A stretch of DNA of 37,425 nucleotides. Source: Solirubrobacteraceae bacterium. GTDB lineage: Bacteria > Actinomycetota > Thermoleophilia > Solirubrobacterales > Solirubrobacteraceae. Of the stretch, positions 3,414 through 15,584 are shown piece by piece. The position numbers and the translations under genes were made by a program. Numbering within the stretch: position 1 is the stretch's first letter; the number at the start of each line of letters is the position of its first letter. Below the pieces are notes generated by a model, which worked only from the letters and a program-made list of their open reading frames with translations, did no database searches and was not told the origin of the DNA. Where the stretch lies: NCBI GenBank assembly GCA_025934395.1, contig JAICYC010000024.1:1-37425 (forward strand). Direction: 5' to 3'.

Positions 3414-5089
3414 TCGCCGACAGCTCCTTCTTCGGGCGTTTCGGGGGGTTCACCGGTGCCGAGGACCTGCGTCCCGGCTGTCTGCGTGGACTGCGAGGAC
3501 GGCCCCGGCGTCAGGCATCCCAGCACGTCTCGCCCGGGCTTCGGGCACTGGCCTTCAGGGTGTGCGCCGCTGTCCGAGGCGGCCACGTACACGGAGGTCT
3601 GCACCGCCTTTTCGCTGCGCTTCAGCGCGAGCTGCGGGTACAGGGCCATGAACAGGATCACGAGCACCACGGGCACGAGCACCGCGCCGTCGGCGATCGA
3701 GATGTCGCGCGAGCTGACCTTGGCGCCCACGCGGTTGTGGACCGAGCGGATGAACAGCCGCAGCGCATACACGCTCGCGAGCACCACGCCGGTGAACGCG
3801 ATGATCGCGATCGCGAGCTTGGCCTGGAACGCGCCGAGCAGGATCAGGAACTCGCCCACGAAGTTCGAGGACCCGGGCATCGCGAGCGTGGCGAGCGAGA
3901 CGATCAGGAACAGCGATGCGAACACGGGCGCGCGGGTGGCGATGCCGCCCATGTCGCGGATGTCCTCCGAGCCGTCCGCGCGTCGCGCGAGCACGCCGAT
4001 GATGAACAGCAGCGGCGCGACCACGAGCCCGTGATTGACCATCTGCAGCAGCGCCCCCTGGGCGCCCTTGCCGTTGAGCGCGAAGATCCCGAGCGTGATG
4101 AACCCGAGCTGCGCCACGGAGGAGTAGCCCGCCACCAGGCGTGCGTCCGTCTGGCTGAACGCCTGCACAGAGCCGTACAGGATCGAGGCGAGGGCGATCA
4201 CGAGCATCAGCGTCTGGAAGTGGACCGCCGCCCCTGGGAACAGGGGCAGGACGATCGCGAGGAACCCATAGGCGCCCACCTTGGACAGCACGCCCGAGAA
4301 GACCATCAGGACCTCGATCGGCATCGCCCGGTAACCGTCGGGCATCCAGCCGTGCAGCGGGAACGCGGGCATCTTCACGAGGAACGCGGCGGCAAAGAAC
4401 AGGAAGATCCAGTCCTGCGTGCCGCTTCCGAGCGCGCTCGAGCGGATTTCGCCGAGCGCGAACGTGATGTGACCGCCGCCTTCCTGGGCGCTGAGCACGC
4501 CCGTGGCGATCGCCGCGGCGAGCATCAGCAGCGAGCCGACGAACGTGTAGATGACGAACTTCAGCGTGGCGCGTACGCGCGTCACCTCGCCGCGGTCCGC
4601 GCCCCAGCCGCCGACCATGAAGTAGAAGGGGATCAGCATCAGGTCGAAGAACGCCACGAACAGCGCGAGGTCCTGTGCGAGGAACGCGCCGAGCACGGCC
4701 GACTCGGCGAGCATGAAGTGGAAGAAGAACAGGCCCGGCCGCTGCCATCGCCGCAGGTTCGCGGCGAGCACCGCCGCGGCGAACAGCAGCGCGGTGAGGC
4801 CGACGAGGAACACGTTCAGGCCGCTCACGCCGAGCTTGTAGTGGATGCCCAGCTCCTTGACCCACATGACGTCGGTGACGTGCTGGAGCTTCGTCGAGCC
4901 GATGTGGAAGTCCGCGATGTAGCCGATCGCGAGGCCCAGCGCGCCTAGCGCGCCGAGCAGCGCGAGCGCCCCGGGCAGCGTCCAGCCCGCCTCCTCGCCG
5001 GTGTCGCGAGCACCGCGTGCGAGGCTGCTCAGCGCGCCCAACAGCCCGAGCGCGGCGGGCAACCAGATCAGGATCGAAAGGGGTGGCAT
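3410..5089 (-). CDS. nuoM: NADH-quinone oxidoreductase subunit M
   Basis: Proton-pumping antiporter-like membrane subunit of complex I, 559 residues. The start is the ATG at 5089, giving MPPLSILIWLPAALG, one base after the nuoL stop; an upstream extension in frame lies inside nuoL and is not real. The TM7 lysine region is seen (VKMPAFPLHGWMPDGYRAMP). At the TM5 carboxylate position this protein has Asp149 (AFFDLMLIPFYF) rather than the Glu of many homologues, a conservative change. After the last helix there is a soluble tail of about 65 residues, rich in Pro, Gly, Ser and Thr and with two Cys, which standard NuoM lacks. The stop overlaps the nuoN start as ATGA. Confidence 0.97.
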   Translation of the reverse strand: MPPLSILIWLPAALGLLGALSSLARGARDTGEEAGWTLPGALALLGALGALGLAIGYIADFHIGSTKLQHVTDVMWVKELGIHYKLGVSGLNVFLVGLTALLFAAAVLAANLRRWQRPGLFFFHFMLAESAVLGAFLAQDLALFVAFFDLMLIPFYFMVGGWGADRGEVTRVRATLKFVIYTFVGSLLMLAAAIATGVLSAQEGGGHITFALGEIRSSALGSGTQDWIFLFFAAAFLVKMPAFPLHGWMPDGYRAMPIEVLMVFSGVLSKVGAYGFLAIVLPLFPGAAVHFQTLMLVIALASILYGSVQAFSQTDARLVAGYSSVAQLGFITLGIFALNGKGAQGALLQMVNHGLVVAPLLFIIGVLARRADGSEDIRDMGGIATRAPVFASLFLIVSLATLAMPGSSNFVGEFLILLGAFQAKLAIAIIAFTGVVLASVYALRLFIRSVHNRVGAKVSSRDISIADGAVLVPVVLVILFMALYPQLALKRSEKAVQTSVYVAASDSGAHPEGQCPKPGRDVLGCLTPGPSSQSTQTAGTQVLGTGEPPETPEEGAVGE

Positions 5090-13472: not shown

Positions 13473-14164
13473 CAGCGCGGCTCCCTGCGCCCACGCGCCG
13501 TCGCCGGGTCCTCGGTGGGCAGCTCGAGGTTCGCCCCTCCGTGCGCGGCGCCCTGCGCGGGATGCTGGGGGAACTCCGTGGAGTTGGCGTGCGGGTCGGC
13601 GACCAGCCTGCGCGCGAGCTGGCGCTCGGGGAGCACGGCTCGCCCGGCGCGCACGTCGTCGAGCAGCGCCGGGATGTCCTGCGAGGACAGCGGCCCCACG
13701 TAGACGCCGTCGACCGACGCCATCGGCGCGATGTCACACGCGCCGAGGCACTCGAAGGCGCGAACGTTCACCTCGGGGTCGCCGTCGACGGCGCGCTGGA
13801 AGTCCGCGAGCAGCGCGTCGGCGCCGCGGAGCGAGCACGAGATGTTCGTGCACACGTACACGCTGTGGCGTCCCACGGGCTCGGTCTCGAGCATGTCGTA
13901 GAAGCTCGCCACCGACTCGAGGTAGGCGGGGGTGACACGCATCACCGCGGCCACCTGCGCGATCGCCTGCGGCGAGCACCAGCCGTGCTCGCGCTGCGCG
14001 GCCGCCAGCGCGGGCAGCGCGGCGGAGCGGCGGTCGGGGTAGTTGGCCATGTGCGCCTCGATCTCCGCGCGCAGGCCCTCGGGGACGTCGACCTCGCCGG
14101 GTGAGGGGATCTCGGCGGGCGGCTTCTCGAGATCCGCAGCCGTGTCCCAGCCGAGGGGGCTCAT
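13472..14164 (-). CDS. nuoE: NADH-quinone oxidoreductase subunit E, [2Fe-2S]
   Basis: Thioredoxin-fold subunit holding cluster N1a, 230 residues. Ligands C105, C110, C139 and C143 fit the C-x4-C ... C-x3-C pattern (CTNISC, CLGAC). The N-terminal helical domain includes NYPDRRSAALPALAAAQREH. A ~45-residue disordered tail with His, Asn and Pro extends past the fold. The ATG at 14164 lies in an ATGA overlap with the end of the small open frame carried by the inserted segment at 14170-14315; before that insertion it would have overlapped the nuoD stop directly (see findings). Confidence 0.96.
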   Translation of the reverse strand: MSPLGWDTAADLEKPPAEIPSPGEVDVPEGLRAEIEAHMANYPDRRSAALPALAAAQREHGWCSPQAIAQVAAVMRVTPAYLESVASFYDMLETEPVGRHSVYVCTNISCSLRGADALLADFQRAVDGDPEVNVRAFECLGACDIAPMASVDGVYVGPLSSQDIPALLDDVRAGRAVLPERQLARRLVADPHANSTEFPQHPAQGAAHGGANLELPTEDPATARGRREPR

Positions 14165-14169
14165 CGGTC
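14161..14169. repeat. Left copy of 9-bp direct repeat (putative target-site duplication)
   Basis: Sequence tcatcggtc, identical to 14316-14324. On the minus strand it reads GACCGATGA and holds the nuoE ATG. The flanking bases on either side differ between the two copies, so the identity stops at exactly 9 bp. Confidence 0.65.
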
Positions 14170-14319
14170 AAGTCCCAGCTCGTTCGAAGTACCAGCGGGG
14201 CGTGGGCCAAGCCGAGCAAGGACGTACCCATGTCTGGGCACAGGCAGGATCGCGAAGTTTGCTCTGCAAACGAGCGACCGAGGACGCAGCTCGGCGCCGG
14301 CATACGCCCCGCTGGTCAT
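14161..14319 (-). CDS. Possible 52-aa small ORF carried through the nuoD-nuoE insertion
   Basis: The ATG at 14319 overlaps the nuoD stop as ATGA and its TGA at 14161-14163 overlaps the nuoE ATG as ATGA, so the frame fits into the chain of coupled overlaps with no gap. The peptide begins MTSGAYAGAELRP, has a middle part with LPVPRHGYVLA and ends NELGLDR. It has no recognisable domain, signal peptide or strong hydrophobic segment. It may be a real microprotein or only a translated spacer that keeps ribosomes moving from nuoD into nuoE. Coding status is unproven. Confidence 0.35.
   Translation of the reverse strand: MTSGAYAGAELRPRSLVCRANFAILPVPRHGYVLARLGPRPAGTSNELGLDR
14170..14315. mobile_element. 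Putative 146-bp miniature inserted element between nuoD and nuoE
   Basis: All other nuo junctions are overlaps or gaps of 0-2 nt, but nuoD and nuoE are 151 nt apart. The extra DNA is bracketed by a perfect 9-bp direct repeat, tcatcggtc, at 14161-14169 and 14316-14324, as expected for a target-site duplication. Removing one repeat copy and the 146 bp restores an exact ATGA overlap of nuoD stop and nuoE start, like the other junctions. Inside are a 13-bp perfect inverted repeat (14191-14203 with 14304-14316) and a small hairpin (gtttgc-tct-gcaaac, 14257-14271). There is no transposase, so if mobile it must move in trans. One arm of the inverted repeat reaches the right edge, but the other lies 21-22 nt inside the left edge, which is unusual for a simple inverted-repeat element; the true boundary may differ. 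That this is a mobile element is inference from structure. Confidence 0.6.
14191..14316. repeat. 13-bp perfect inverted repeat within the nuoD-nuoE insertion
   Basis: Arms are accagcggggcgt (14191-14203) and acgccccgctggt (14304-14316), 100 bp apart. In the nuo transcript they could pair into a long-armed stem closing the whole insert, with the smaller gtttgc/gcaaac hairpin inside. The arms could be element ends or an RNA structure. Confidence 0.6.
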
Positions 14320-14324
14320 CGGTC
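14316..14324. repeat. Right copy of 9-bp direct repeat (putative target-site duplication)
   Basis: Sequence tcatcggtc. On the minus strand it encodes the last codons of nuoD (Asp-Arg-stop) and also contains the ATG of the small frame at 14319. It pairs with 14161-14169. Confidence 0.65.
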
Positions 14325-15584
14325 GATGCCCCCGAGGATCGGATCGAGCATCGCGACGGTGGCGATCATGTCGGCGATGTAGCTGCCCTTGACCATGTGG
14401 GAGACCGCCTGCAGGTTCACGAACGAGGGGTCGCGCATGTGCACGCGCGCGGGCTTGGAGGAGCCGTCCGAGCGCACGTAGCAGGCGAGCTCTCCGCGCG
14501 GCGACTCGATCGGTGCGTAGACCTCGCCGGGCGGCACGCGGAAGCCCTCCGTGACGAGCTTGAAGTGGTGGATCAGCGCCTCCATCGAGGTGGCGAGCTC
14601 GTGGCGCGGCGGCAGCGCGACCTTGCGGTCCTCGGTGATGTACGGCCCTTCCGGGAGCCCGTCGAGGGCCTGTTCGATGATCTTCACCGACTCGTAGATC
14701 TCGGCCAGGCGCACCGCGAAGCGGTCGTAGTTGTCGCCGACCGTGCCGATCGGGATCTTGAAGTCGAAGTGGTCGTAGGAGCAGTACGGGTCGGCCTTGC
14801 GCAGGTCCCACGGGTTGCCCGCGGCGCGCAGCAGCGGCCCGGTGACCCCGAGCCCGAGGAGGGTCTCGGCGTCCAGGGGGCACGTCCCGCGCAGGCGCTG
14901 GAGCACGATCTCGTTGGAGTTGAGGATCGCGCCGTACTCGTCCGCGCGCTCGGGCATCACCTTCAGGAACTCGCGCACCTTCTCCTCGAACCCCCTGGGG
15001 ATGTCCTCGATCACGCCGCCGACCTGGAAGTAGCGCGTGTGCATGCGCTGGCCCGAGGACATCTCGAACAGGTCGAGGATCAGCTCCCGCTCGCGCAGGC
15101 AGTACAGGAAGATCGAGACCGCGCCGAGGTCGAGCGCGCTCGTGCCGAGCCAGATCAGGTGCGAGGCGATGCGGTTGAGCTCGAGGTGGATCACGCGCAG
15201 GTACTGGCCACGCGGCGGCACCTCCACCTCGACGAGCTTCTCGACCGCCGAGCAGTAGGCCATCGCGTTGAAGTAATAGGCGAGGTAGTCCATCCGCTCG
15301 ACGACCGGGATGACCTTCCAGTACGCCTTGTCCTCGGCGGTCTTCTCGATCCCCGTGTGGACGTAGCCGATGATCGGTTTGATGTCGCGCACGACCTCGC
15401 CCTGGAGCGTCACGAGCAGGCGCAGCACCCCGTGCGTGGCGGGGTGGTGGGGCCCGAAGTTGAGCGTGAGCAGCTCTTCGCTCGTCTCGCCCCCCTGCAC
15501 GAGCGGCTCGTCGAGCCGGGAGAGCGTGACGCTCTGCTCGCGGGAGCGGTAGTCCGACAGCGTCCGGTCCTCAGGCGGGCTCAC
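14316..15584 (-). CDS. nuoD: NADH-quinone oxidoreductase subunit D
   Basis: 49-kDa-type subunit of complex I forming the quinone-reduction site with NuoB, 422 residues. FGPHHPATHGVLRLL near the N terminus holds the quinone-site histidine loop, and the C terminus has SFVNLQAVSHMVKGSYIADMIATV, both family hallmarks. The start is a GTG at 15584, overlapping nuoC by 14 nt, and gives MSPPEDRTLSDYR. NuoC and NuoD are separate proteins here, not fused. The TGA lies in the right copy of the 9-bp repeat flanking the insertion. Confidence 0.96.
   Translation of the reverse strand: MSPPEDRTLSDYRSREQSVTLSRLDEPLVQGGETSEELLTLNFGPHHPATHGVLRLLVTLQGEVVRDIKPIIGYVHTGIEKTAEDKAYWKVIPVVERMDYLAYYFNAMAYCSAVEKLVEVEVPPRGQYLRVIHLELNRIASHLIWLGTSALDLGAVSIFLYCLRERELILDLFEMSSGQRMHTRYFQVGGVIEDIPRGFEEKVREFLKVMPERADEYGAILNSNEIVLQRLRGTCPLDAETLLGLGVTGPLLRAAGNPWDLRKADPYCSYDHFDFKIPIGTVGDNYDRFAVRLAEIYESVKIIEQALDGLPEGPYITEDRKVALPPRHELATSMEALIHHFKLVTEGFRVPPGEVYAPIESPRGELACYVRSDGSSKPARVHMRDPSFVNLQAVSHMVKGSYIADMIATVAMLDPILGGIDR

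Follow-up and report, generated by a model that had tools for sequence, protein, structure and literature searches.

A structured interspersed element inserted into the nuoD/nuoE stop-start overlap of a Solirubrobacteraceae bacterium

The nuoD/nuoE junction and its insertion

The DNA considered here (the window) is a stretch of 37,425 nucleotides (nt) of contig JAICYC010000024.1 of a Solirubrobacteraceae bacterium, assembly GCA_025934395.1, a draft of 3.0 Mb in 151 contigs; it carries on its minus strand a nuo operon in which a small structured element lies between nuoD and nuoE. NuoD was identified by TIGR01962 (E 5.1e-157) and NuoE by TIGR01958 (E 2.4e-34, 118.6 bits, under that model's curated cut-off of 142.4). 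An earlier inspection of the sequence, hereafter the original prediction, had proposed that a miniature element entered the ATGA at which nuoD stops and nuoE starts, duplicating 9 bp of target. The direct repeat is indeed perfect, tcatcggtc on the plus strand and GACCGATGA when read on the nuo strand, with 146 bp between its copies and with bases immediately outside the two copies that are not identical. The duplicated 9 bp also retain both codons as proposed, one copy holding the nuoD stop and the other the nuoE ATG. Taken alone, a 9-bp direct repeat is no better than chance, because the window contains 282 maximal exact repeats of at least 9 bp within 250 nt (7.5 per kb), and the duplication thus needed independent proof.

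The original prediction looked for that proof in empty sites, and relatives provide them. NuoD was located in 23 of the 24 genomes of the genus, the source genome included, at 25 loci; of the 24 other loci, all but L039 and L042 have a readable nuoD end (22 loci from 21 genomes). None of the 22 readable ends carries the insert, and in 19 of them the stop lies within NTGA, with stop contexts of ATGA (14), GTGA (5) and, in the remaining three, TAA, TAA and TAG. Over all 25 loci the structure model of the family described below, R1, recovers the insert of the window alone (L018, E 5e-19), a single further match being at chance level (E 0.26). The 146 bp are an insertion, found in the source genome only among the readable congeners. 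Copying of the element's arms from the target is not supported, since the left arm at nuoD differs from the sequence that follows ATGA in relatives.

A second site shows a similar pattern, at a junction of genes that, together with the neighbour of rpsS referred to below, we name rplB and rpsS by sequence and recall. At the 16 of 20 rplB/rpsS loci that are readable, the element is present in three, a bare ATGA in 11 (by eye) and another short spacer in two. One of these two spacers (L306) has the form ATGA, 28 bp, ATGA, with a ten-codon open reading frame (ORF), and is possibly the scar of a deleted element.

The insertion in the window adds 155 bp, which is 2 mod 3, and is stop-free in that frame, so that a 52-codon frame begins at the ATG of the left ATGA and terminates at the TGA inside the right ATGA, where nuoE starts. 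This frame is called a relay ORF here; its coordinates and those of the other features of the junction are collected in the table below.

A dispersed family with a conserved fold

Further copies in the genome were predicted and exist: BLAST (E<=0.01) found 16 places, the insert included, and R1 at least 30. With the insert as query, BLAST matches occur in 19 of the 24 genus genomes, the source genome among them. The first 14 nt of the left half of the conserved core, GCGTCCTCGGTCGCTC, are present in 16 exact copies in the source genome, versus none for a reversed control. Across copies the constant core consists of GCGTCCTCGGTCGCTC, a hairpin and then, in its common form, CTCCCTGCGTCCTTG, and it is enclosed by arms of about 17 bp that vary between copies and are complementary inside each copy. 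An exact-pattern scan of 84,980 species genomes returned at least 114 stretches; among the 80 titles listed, all belong to Solirubrobacterales, to other Thermoleophilia or to contigs with a phylum-level name only, bar one labelled Chlamydiae, and the contig of this last copy (L104, CAJCHW010000193.1) is probably a misbinned Thermoleophilia contig.

Three sets of copies underlie the counts that follow. From the 114 loci, 111 copies were kept as a first set, those with less than 70 nt of flank being dropped; of these, 98 served for a complementarity profile and 93 for a direct-repeat test, copies with weak arms or short flanks being left out. Alignment A1 holds 45 copies from the pattern scan plus the window copy, and the invariance of its core is partly forced by the search pattern. 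A genus set of 109 copies was taken from among the R1 matches listed for genus genomes, with at most 150 candidates per genome scored initially.

On A1 the fold comprises a closing stem P1 (18 pairs), an inner stem P2 (6 pairs) and an inner hairpin P3 with its base (8 pairs), and 77.8% of cells pair as compared with 59.8% after shuffling. The covariation score is 0.423, versus 0.142 for shuffled and at most 0.160 for slid alignments, and two-sided changes occur in 27 of the 32 pairs. Distant copies, inspected with this model too, do not enter these pair counts. Arms pair with their own partners far better than with arms swapped between copies (mean 11.6 versus 5.5), and the complementary fraction in the 98 profiled copies falls from 0.89 at position 26 from the core through 0.62 and 0.46 to 0.26 at position 29, a drop which points to a definite end of the element. 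The copy in the window itself folds with z scores of -7.0 on the plus strand and -6.6 on the minus strand. Identity with a known Rfam RNA is not supported, as no Rfam 15 match overlaps the copy in the window (13900-14600, E up to 5) or the copies at eight other loci (E up to 1). The family is a structured, probably non-autonomous interspersed element of about 105-165 nt per copy.

Variants of this plan occur. Among 384 matches to a core half, in which overlapping loci are counted repeatedly, 51 lack a partner within 130 nt; by eye these are truncations or variants. At C4 a core match has both halves and an enlarged inner hairpin; in L222, L357 and L114 a second hairpin nested in P3 makes it larger (by eye); and tandem pairs of elements occur at L169, L332 (L176) and L346.

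Both internal features that had been noted, an inverted repeat of 13 bp (14191-14203 / 14304-14316) and a small hairpin, are present, but only one side of the inverted repeat reaches a target copy. The inverted repeat belongs to the stem that closes the conserved fold, and the right arm and right target repeat are 21 nt apart. The 21-nt tail between them has no second copy in the genome assembly, where, besides the insert, no match with E<=10 begins before query position 31. Target repeats are of 9 bp in the window and in L321, 10 bp in L313 and 11 bp in L229, and the tail from right arm to right repeat is about 10-35 nt long and different in each of these four copies; GGAGG occurs in three tails (L321, L253 and L265). 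The expectation that other copies would have target repeats of their own holds for a few and fails for most, 87 of the 93 tested copies having no direct repeat of at least 8 bp at their ends. The longest repeats among the 93 look real, namely 11 bp in L136 (the same rplB/rpsS copy as L229) and 10 bp in L115. Target duplication is seen at few sites only. In L115 a tRNA-His gene has the element (near 4928-5040) at its 3' end, and the 10-bp repeat is of the tRNA end.

Table. Features of the nuoD/nuoE junction in the window (positions in the window; minus is the nuo strand)
Feature	Position	Strand	Remarks
Left target repeat GACCGATGA	14316..14324	-	nuoD stop TGA (14318-14316) and relay ORF ATG (14319-14317)
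Right target repeat GACCGATGA	14161..14169	-	nuoE ATG (14164-14162) and relay ORF stop TGA (14163-14161)
Inserted 146 bp	14170..14315	-	missing from 22/22 readable nuoD ends in relatives
Match to structure model R1	14189..14317	-	82 bits over model positions 1-108; R1 was built from 46 sequences, the window copy included
Closing stem P1, 5' arm, ACCAGCGGGGCGTATGCC	14299..14316	-	
Closing stem P1, 3' arm, GGCCCACGCCCCGCTGGT	14191..14208	-	
Inner stem P2, 5' side, GCCGAGC	14289..14295	-	
Inner stem P2, 3' side, GCTCGGC	14211..14217	-	
Conserved core, left half GCGTCCTCGGTCGCTC	14272..14287	-	first 14 nt in 16 exact copies in source genome
Conserved core, right half CGTCCTTG	14217..14224	-	conserved in alignment A1, partly by selection
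Inner hairpin P3, gtttgc tct gcaaac	14257..14271		
Extra hairpin, right half of loop	14224..14241		shared by some copies; L002-L005, L009, L010 and L139 also, by eye
Tail from right arm to right target repeat, 21 nt	14170..14190	-	
Relay ORF, 52 codons	14161..14319	-	ATGA at each end

The arms also bear on which strand folds. A stem that is kept on a folding strand tolerates G.U or G.T pairs, which appear on the other strand as A.C. When the transition mismatches of P1 are read on the strand bearing GCGTCCTC, which is the sense strand of the usual upstream gene, 110 genus copies have 93 A.C and 5 G.T; with one copy for each of 27 arm clusters the count is 22 to 0 (p 5e-7). A cruder count on the first set gives 92 to 28, or 36 to 8 by cluster. 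The bias is equal where the flanking genes are in tandem (36:2), convergent (26:2) or reversed (10:0), and hence belongs to the element rather than to the direction of neighbouring genes, which was rejected as its cause. Judged from base mismatches, it is thus most likely the antisense strand of the usual upstream gene that carries the working fold, and a bias of this kind is expected for a form that exists as single-stranded DNA or RNA, not for a double-stranded miniature inverted-repeat transposable element (MITE).

The compared genomes are drafts split into many contigs; the copy counts are minimum values. At E<=0.001, R1 detects the element in 21 of the 24 genus genomes, the source genome included, with at least 30 copies in the source genome and in G020, at least 28 in G018, and none found in G004, G010 or G013. 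In a sample of 296 genomes across the phylum, 17 carry it at E<=1e-4. Nine of these belong to the class: the source genome and three others of its family, two from another family of the order, and three from two more families. The remaining eight lie outside the class, six being members of family f8. A variant with longer ends, RGTG on the left and CAC on the right, was recognized by eye in G122 (same family), in G133 (same class) and in f8 outside the class; it might be flanked by TA. The family is thus represented in Thermoleophilia as well as in other actinomycetotal classes.

Gene ends and relay reading frames

Most copies overlap stop codons at gene ends. With genes in the neighbourhood of copies judged by open frames and by G+C content at codon positions, 80 of the 111 copies in the first set have a same-strand upstream stop codon within 45 nt to the left of the core, in or beside the left arm. 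In the genus set the stop of the upstream gene lies near the left end in 92 of 109 copies, and 51 of these 92 stops end 4-6 nt inside the element. Of 110 copies, 86 are oriented like their upstream gene and 13 against it, with 11 unclear.

One such gene end recurs across the genus. The gene whose protein ends in CGNNTGCG, which we take to be nrdJ, encoding a B12-dependent ribonucleotide reductase, is matched in 20 of the 24 genus genomes and has a readable 3' end in 17. Six of these ends carry a complete element exactly at the stop, one, in the source genome, carries a partly deleted element (50.9 bits), two carry a left half only (by eye) and eight carry none. The seven arm pairs at this site all start with CTGA and end with TCAG, and their interiors differ with mostly compensated changes, such that some sites have either been held long enough for compensatory change or been re-entered.

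Relay frames are found where a copy meets a stop of the form NTGA. They were counted over 112 genus copies, consisting of the 109 and of L321, L313 and L306, which came from a search for rpsS. An upstream stop in NTGA stands near the left end in 16 of the 112 (L284 and L244, the latter with TGATG, are excluded from these), and an exact ATGA-to-ATGA ORF of 41-58 codons is present in 10 of the 16. Exact relay frames running from ATGA to ATGA thus exist at the window and at nine other copies: between a zinc-ribbon protein gene and rpe (L228, 43 codons); after rnc, where the relay (L167, 41 codons) reaches a 17-codon ORF that precedes smc rather than smc itself; at rplB/rpsS in three genomes (L229, 44 codons; L321, 58; L313, 50); between rpsS and the next gene (L253, 46); between an unnamed upstream gene and mrdA (L233, 42); at rplF/rplR (L261, 44); and at pheS/pheT (L265, 44). 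The names rpe, rnc, smc, mrdA, rplF, rplR, pheS and pheT rest on NCBIfam matches of protein pieces, all below cut-offs as expected for pieces, and the zinc-ribbon name in L228 is a weak match.

If one third of insertions fall in frame, the chance of 10 relays in 16 is 0.016 with all frames taken as open and 1.4e-7 at the 26% openness of shuffled window inserts; without L321 and L313, the copies from the targeted search, 8 of 14 are relays and the corresponding values are 0.058 and 7e-6. These copies are partly dependent, two being in one genome and three at one junction. Where ATGA lies within 9 nt of the left end, 10 of 11 copies relay (1.3e-4).

In L212, the second NTGA copy of the source genome, the ORF ends 33 nt beyond the right end, where it overlaps the start that follows. 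In L284 (501-609) the frame of the upstream protein continues directly into the element and closes at the ATGA where the next gene starts, so that the element would form a C-terminal extension. Both rpsS junctions of G007 (L321, 1330-1480 and 1772-1880) carry an element, each with an ATGA-to-ATGA relay ORF. Outside the genus, five ORFs of 54-55 codons joined to an upstream stop were found among 27 copies (L187 twice, L202, L288 and L295); they meet a possible downstream start at -1, 0 or -4, with starts checked by eye for L187 only, and many of the 27 copies are not at tandem junctions. Three similar RGTG...CAC elements lie within a ribosomal protein operon of G122 (L187, 128-237, 1816-1925 and 2293-2403), the last two presumably between rplN and rplX and between rplX and rplE. 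In two of the L187 elements the outermost stem pairs a stop-adjacent CCTCC with the GGAGG before the next start (by eye).

Origin, rival explanations and meaning

The reading that we consider probable is that a non-autonomous structured element inserted into the ATGA overlap of nuoD and nuoE, and that the relay ORF so formed is able to pass the ribosome on. The element would have entered the overlap and duplicated 9 bp; because the duplication falls on the ATGA, both genes kept their codons, giving the order nuoD, ATGA, relay ORF, ATGA, nuoE. Termination-reinitiation may then pass through the element rather than stopping there, and we infer that the relay ORF is translated and keeps the coupling of the two genes. 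Insertions in a wrong frame would presumably be lost by selection. As to movement, the mobile form may be the single strand opposite the usual upstream gene, as single-stranded DNA or as an RNA copy, moved by an enzyme supplied in trans. A more specific version, in which an element like a short interspersed element (SINE) or otherwise moved as a single strand, namely the folded strand opposite the host gene, with arms that are free in sequence so long as they are complementary, is adapted to enter coupled junctions of essential operons as a stop-free relay in more than one class of Actinomycetota, is distinctly unlikely in its entirety.

A number of observations weigh against the probable reading. 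Direct repeats of at least 8 bp occur in 6 of the 93 copies, as compared with 3.8% when flanks are swapped. About 22% of the cells of A1 are unpaired, some copies being in another arm register, and one measure of covariation, further pair types, is equalled by 52 of 500 shuffles. Outside the genus the strand bias is weaker, at 27:13 in 40 copies and 12:5 by cluster (p 0.14). Exact relays are missing in six of the 16 NTGA copies (L157, L159, L212, L224, L238 and L254), the relay excess is only modest if every frame is counted as open, and relay ORFs run in all three frames of the core. This last point means that they encode no conserved peptide, an explanation that was accordingly rejected. At the nrdJ-like stop the element stands at the same position in seven of the 17 readable genomes, each time with its own arm pair, a pattern that suggests a function retained over a long time no less than it suggests mobility. 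Finally, no transposase or other enzyme is tied to the element, among Y1 transposases and reverse transcriptases, the families searched; other transposase families were not.

Within those two families the pattern is as follows, all searches being at E<=1e-5 in draft genomes that can miss genes. Mobilisation of the REP/BIME type by a RAYT is not supported, as Y1_Tnp (PF01797) was found in one of the 24 genus genomes and not in the source genome with its at least 30 copies. A reverse transcriptase is likewise not supported as an obvious partner, because its presence disagrees with copy number: RVT_1 (PF00078) was found in eight of the 24 genomes, including G004 and G013, in which no copies were found, and was not found in G000 or G020, which have at least 30 each. 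No gene-carrying version was noticed by eye among the partnerless core halves at the loci analysed.

The inserted element of the original prediction is supported by the empty sites and the further copies; a classical MITE is not shown. Such an element would be an internally deleted derivative of an insertion sequence with terminal inverted repeats, for which a DDE transposase acts on double-stranded DNA and generates 9-bp duplications. The perfect 9-bp duplication at an otherwise empty site, the 13-bp inverted repeat and the many copies all fit this description, even though nearly all other tested copies lack a repeat of 8 bp or more. The inverted repeats are, however, not terminal, since the left arm abuts its target repeat whereas the right arm stands 21 nt away, with tails that vary in L229, L321 and L313. 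The target repeats, moreover, differ in length among the four copies that have them, the arms change in sequence between copies yet remain complementary, and strand-polar mismatches are unexpected for a double-stranded substrate. Nor was a version with a gene noticed among the partnerless core halves, which by eye are truncations or variants, DDE families not being among those searched. A MITE in the strict sense is not supported, given the tail and the strand bias, and a classical MITE origin is highly unlikely overall.

That the family might instead be a conserved RNA control element at gene ends, whether a bidirectional terminator, a stabiliser of mRNA 3' ends or a processing site, with the nuo copy as an unusual transfer, is unlikely. 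Upstream stops near the left end, strong covariation and the shared stop position with differing arm pairs at the nrdJ-like gene would all be expected of it, as would the nrdJ-like 3' end of L345 (G010), where by eye a plain GC-rich hairpin without the core replaces the element that seven relatives carry. The number of copies found, though, ranges from none to at least 30 among congeners, and the folding strand opposes the upstream gene even in tandem settings, so that the upstream mRNA is not what is selected; the rplB/rpsS, rplF/rplR, pheS/pheT and nuoD/nuoE junctions are, besides, poor sites for a terminator. Chance filler DNA captured during repair of a double-strand break, the 9-bp repeat having arisen from staggered ends, would account for a 21-nt tail with no second copy in the assembly, but is hardly credible for an insert that belongs to a structured family with definite ends, members of which occupy several other ATGA junctions.

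Among known systems the closest are MIRU and YPAL/RU-2. The MIRU (mycobacterial interspersed repetitive units) are actinobacterial repeats of 40-100 bp that occupy 41 places in M. tuberculosis H37Rv (PMC2734929). They appear to be mobile and to insert at start codons in such a way that the ORF they contain is coupled, at -4 nt spacing, to the gene that follows, likely with little effect on its expression (PMC12548453, citing Supply et al. 1997). The nuo family shares with them its status as an interspersed actinobacterial repeat and, in 10 of the 16 NTGA copies, a place within a stop/start overlap and an ORF of its own at -4 nt with predicted coupling; most copies of the family are not at stop/start junctions. 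It differs by description in its length of about 105-165 nt, its conserved internal loop, its covarying arms and its strand polarity. YPAL/RU-2 of Yersinia and Erwinia is a small palindromic mobile unit with internal inverted repeats, without TA ends and not A+T-rich, whose target duplications vary from 3 to 26 bp at targets that span or adjoin dyad symmetry (PMC2229807). An internal palindrome and target duplications of varying length are likewise found in the nuo family, which, by description, differs in belonging to another phylum and in targeting stop/start overlaps and stop codons; its arm covariation and strand bias receive no mention for YPAL/RU-2 in the available part of PMC2229807. 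The same part describes ERIC/IRU/RU-1, Correia/NEMIS and RUP as short structured interspersed repeats with TA termini, ERIC and some Correia elements having open frames, and stem-loop families have been surveyed elsewhere (PMC2267715). Unlike these TA-bounded repeats, the nuo element does not end in TA.

In the attC sites of integrons, variable arms surround a conserved structure that follows the stop codon of a gene and is folded and active on one strand, with GTTRRRY/RYYYAAC end boxes and an integrase. The nuo family resembles attC in its variable arms, conserved structure, position after a stop codon and probable single folding strand, and differs in having its conserved sequence in the middle rather than at the ends. 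The element is best filed among small structured interspersed elements and not as a MIRU, because the likeness to MIRU, as that to YPAL, is one of description. No account of the family or of its setting was found in print in the one open-access library searched; what is new here is the ATGA-to-ATGA relay frame, the strand-polar arm mismatches and the placement of most copies over stop codons.

These features suggest a route by which a mobile repeat may enter essential operons, such as nuo and those for ribosomal proteins and pheST, without breaking translational coupling, and the relay ORFs constitute a natural set for testing termination-reinitiation. Strand-polar wobble offers a general and cheap test for the working strand of a repeat. 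In the present family it argues against the usual double-strand model of MITE movement, and the mode of movement thereby becomes testable.

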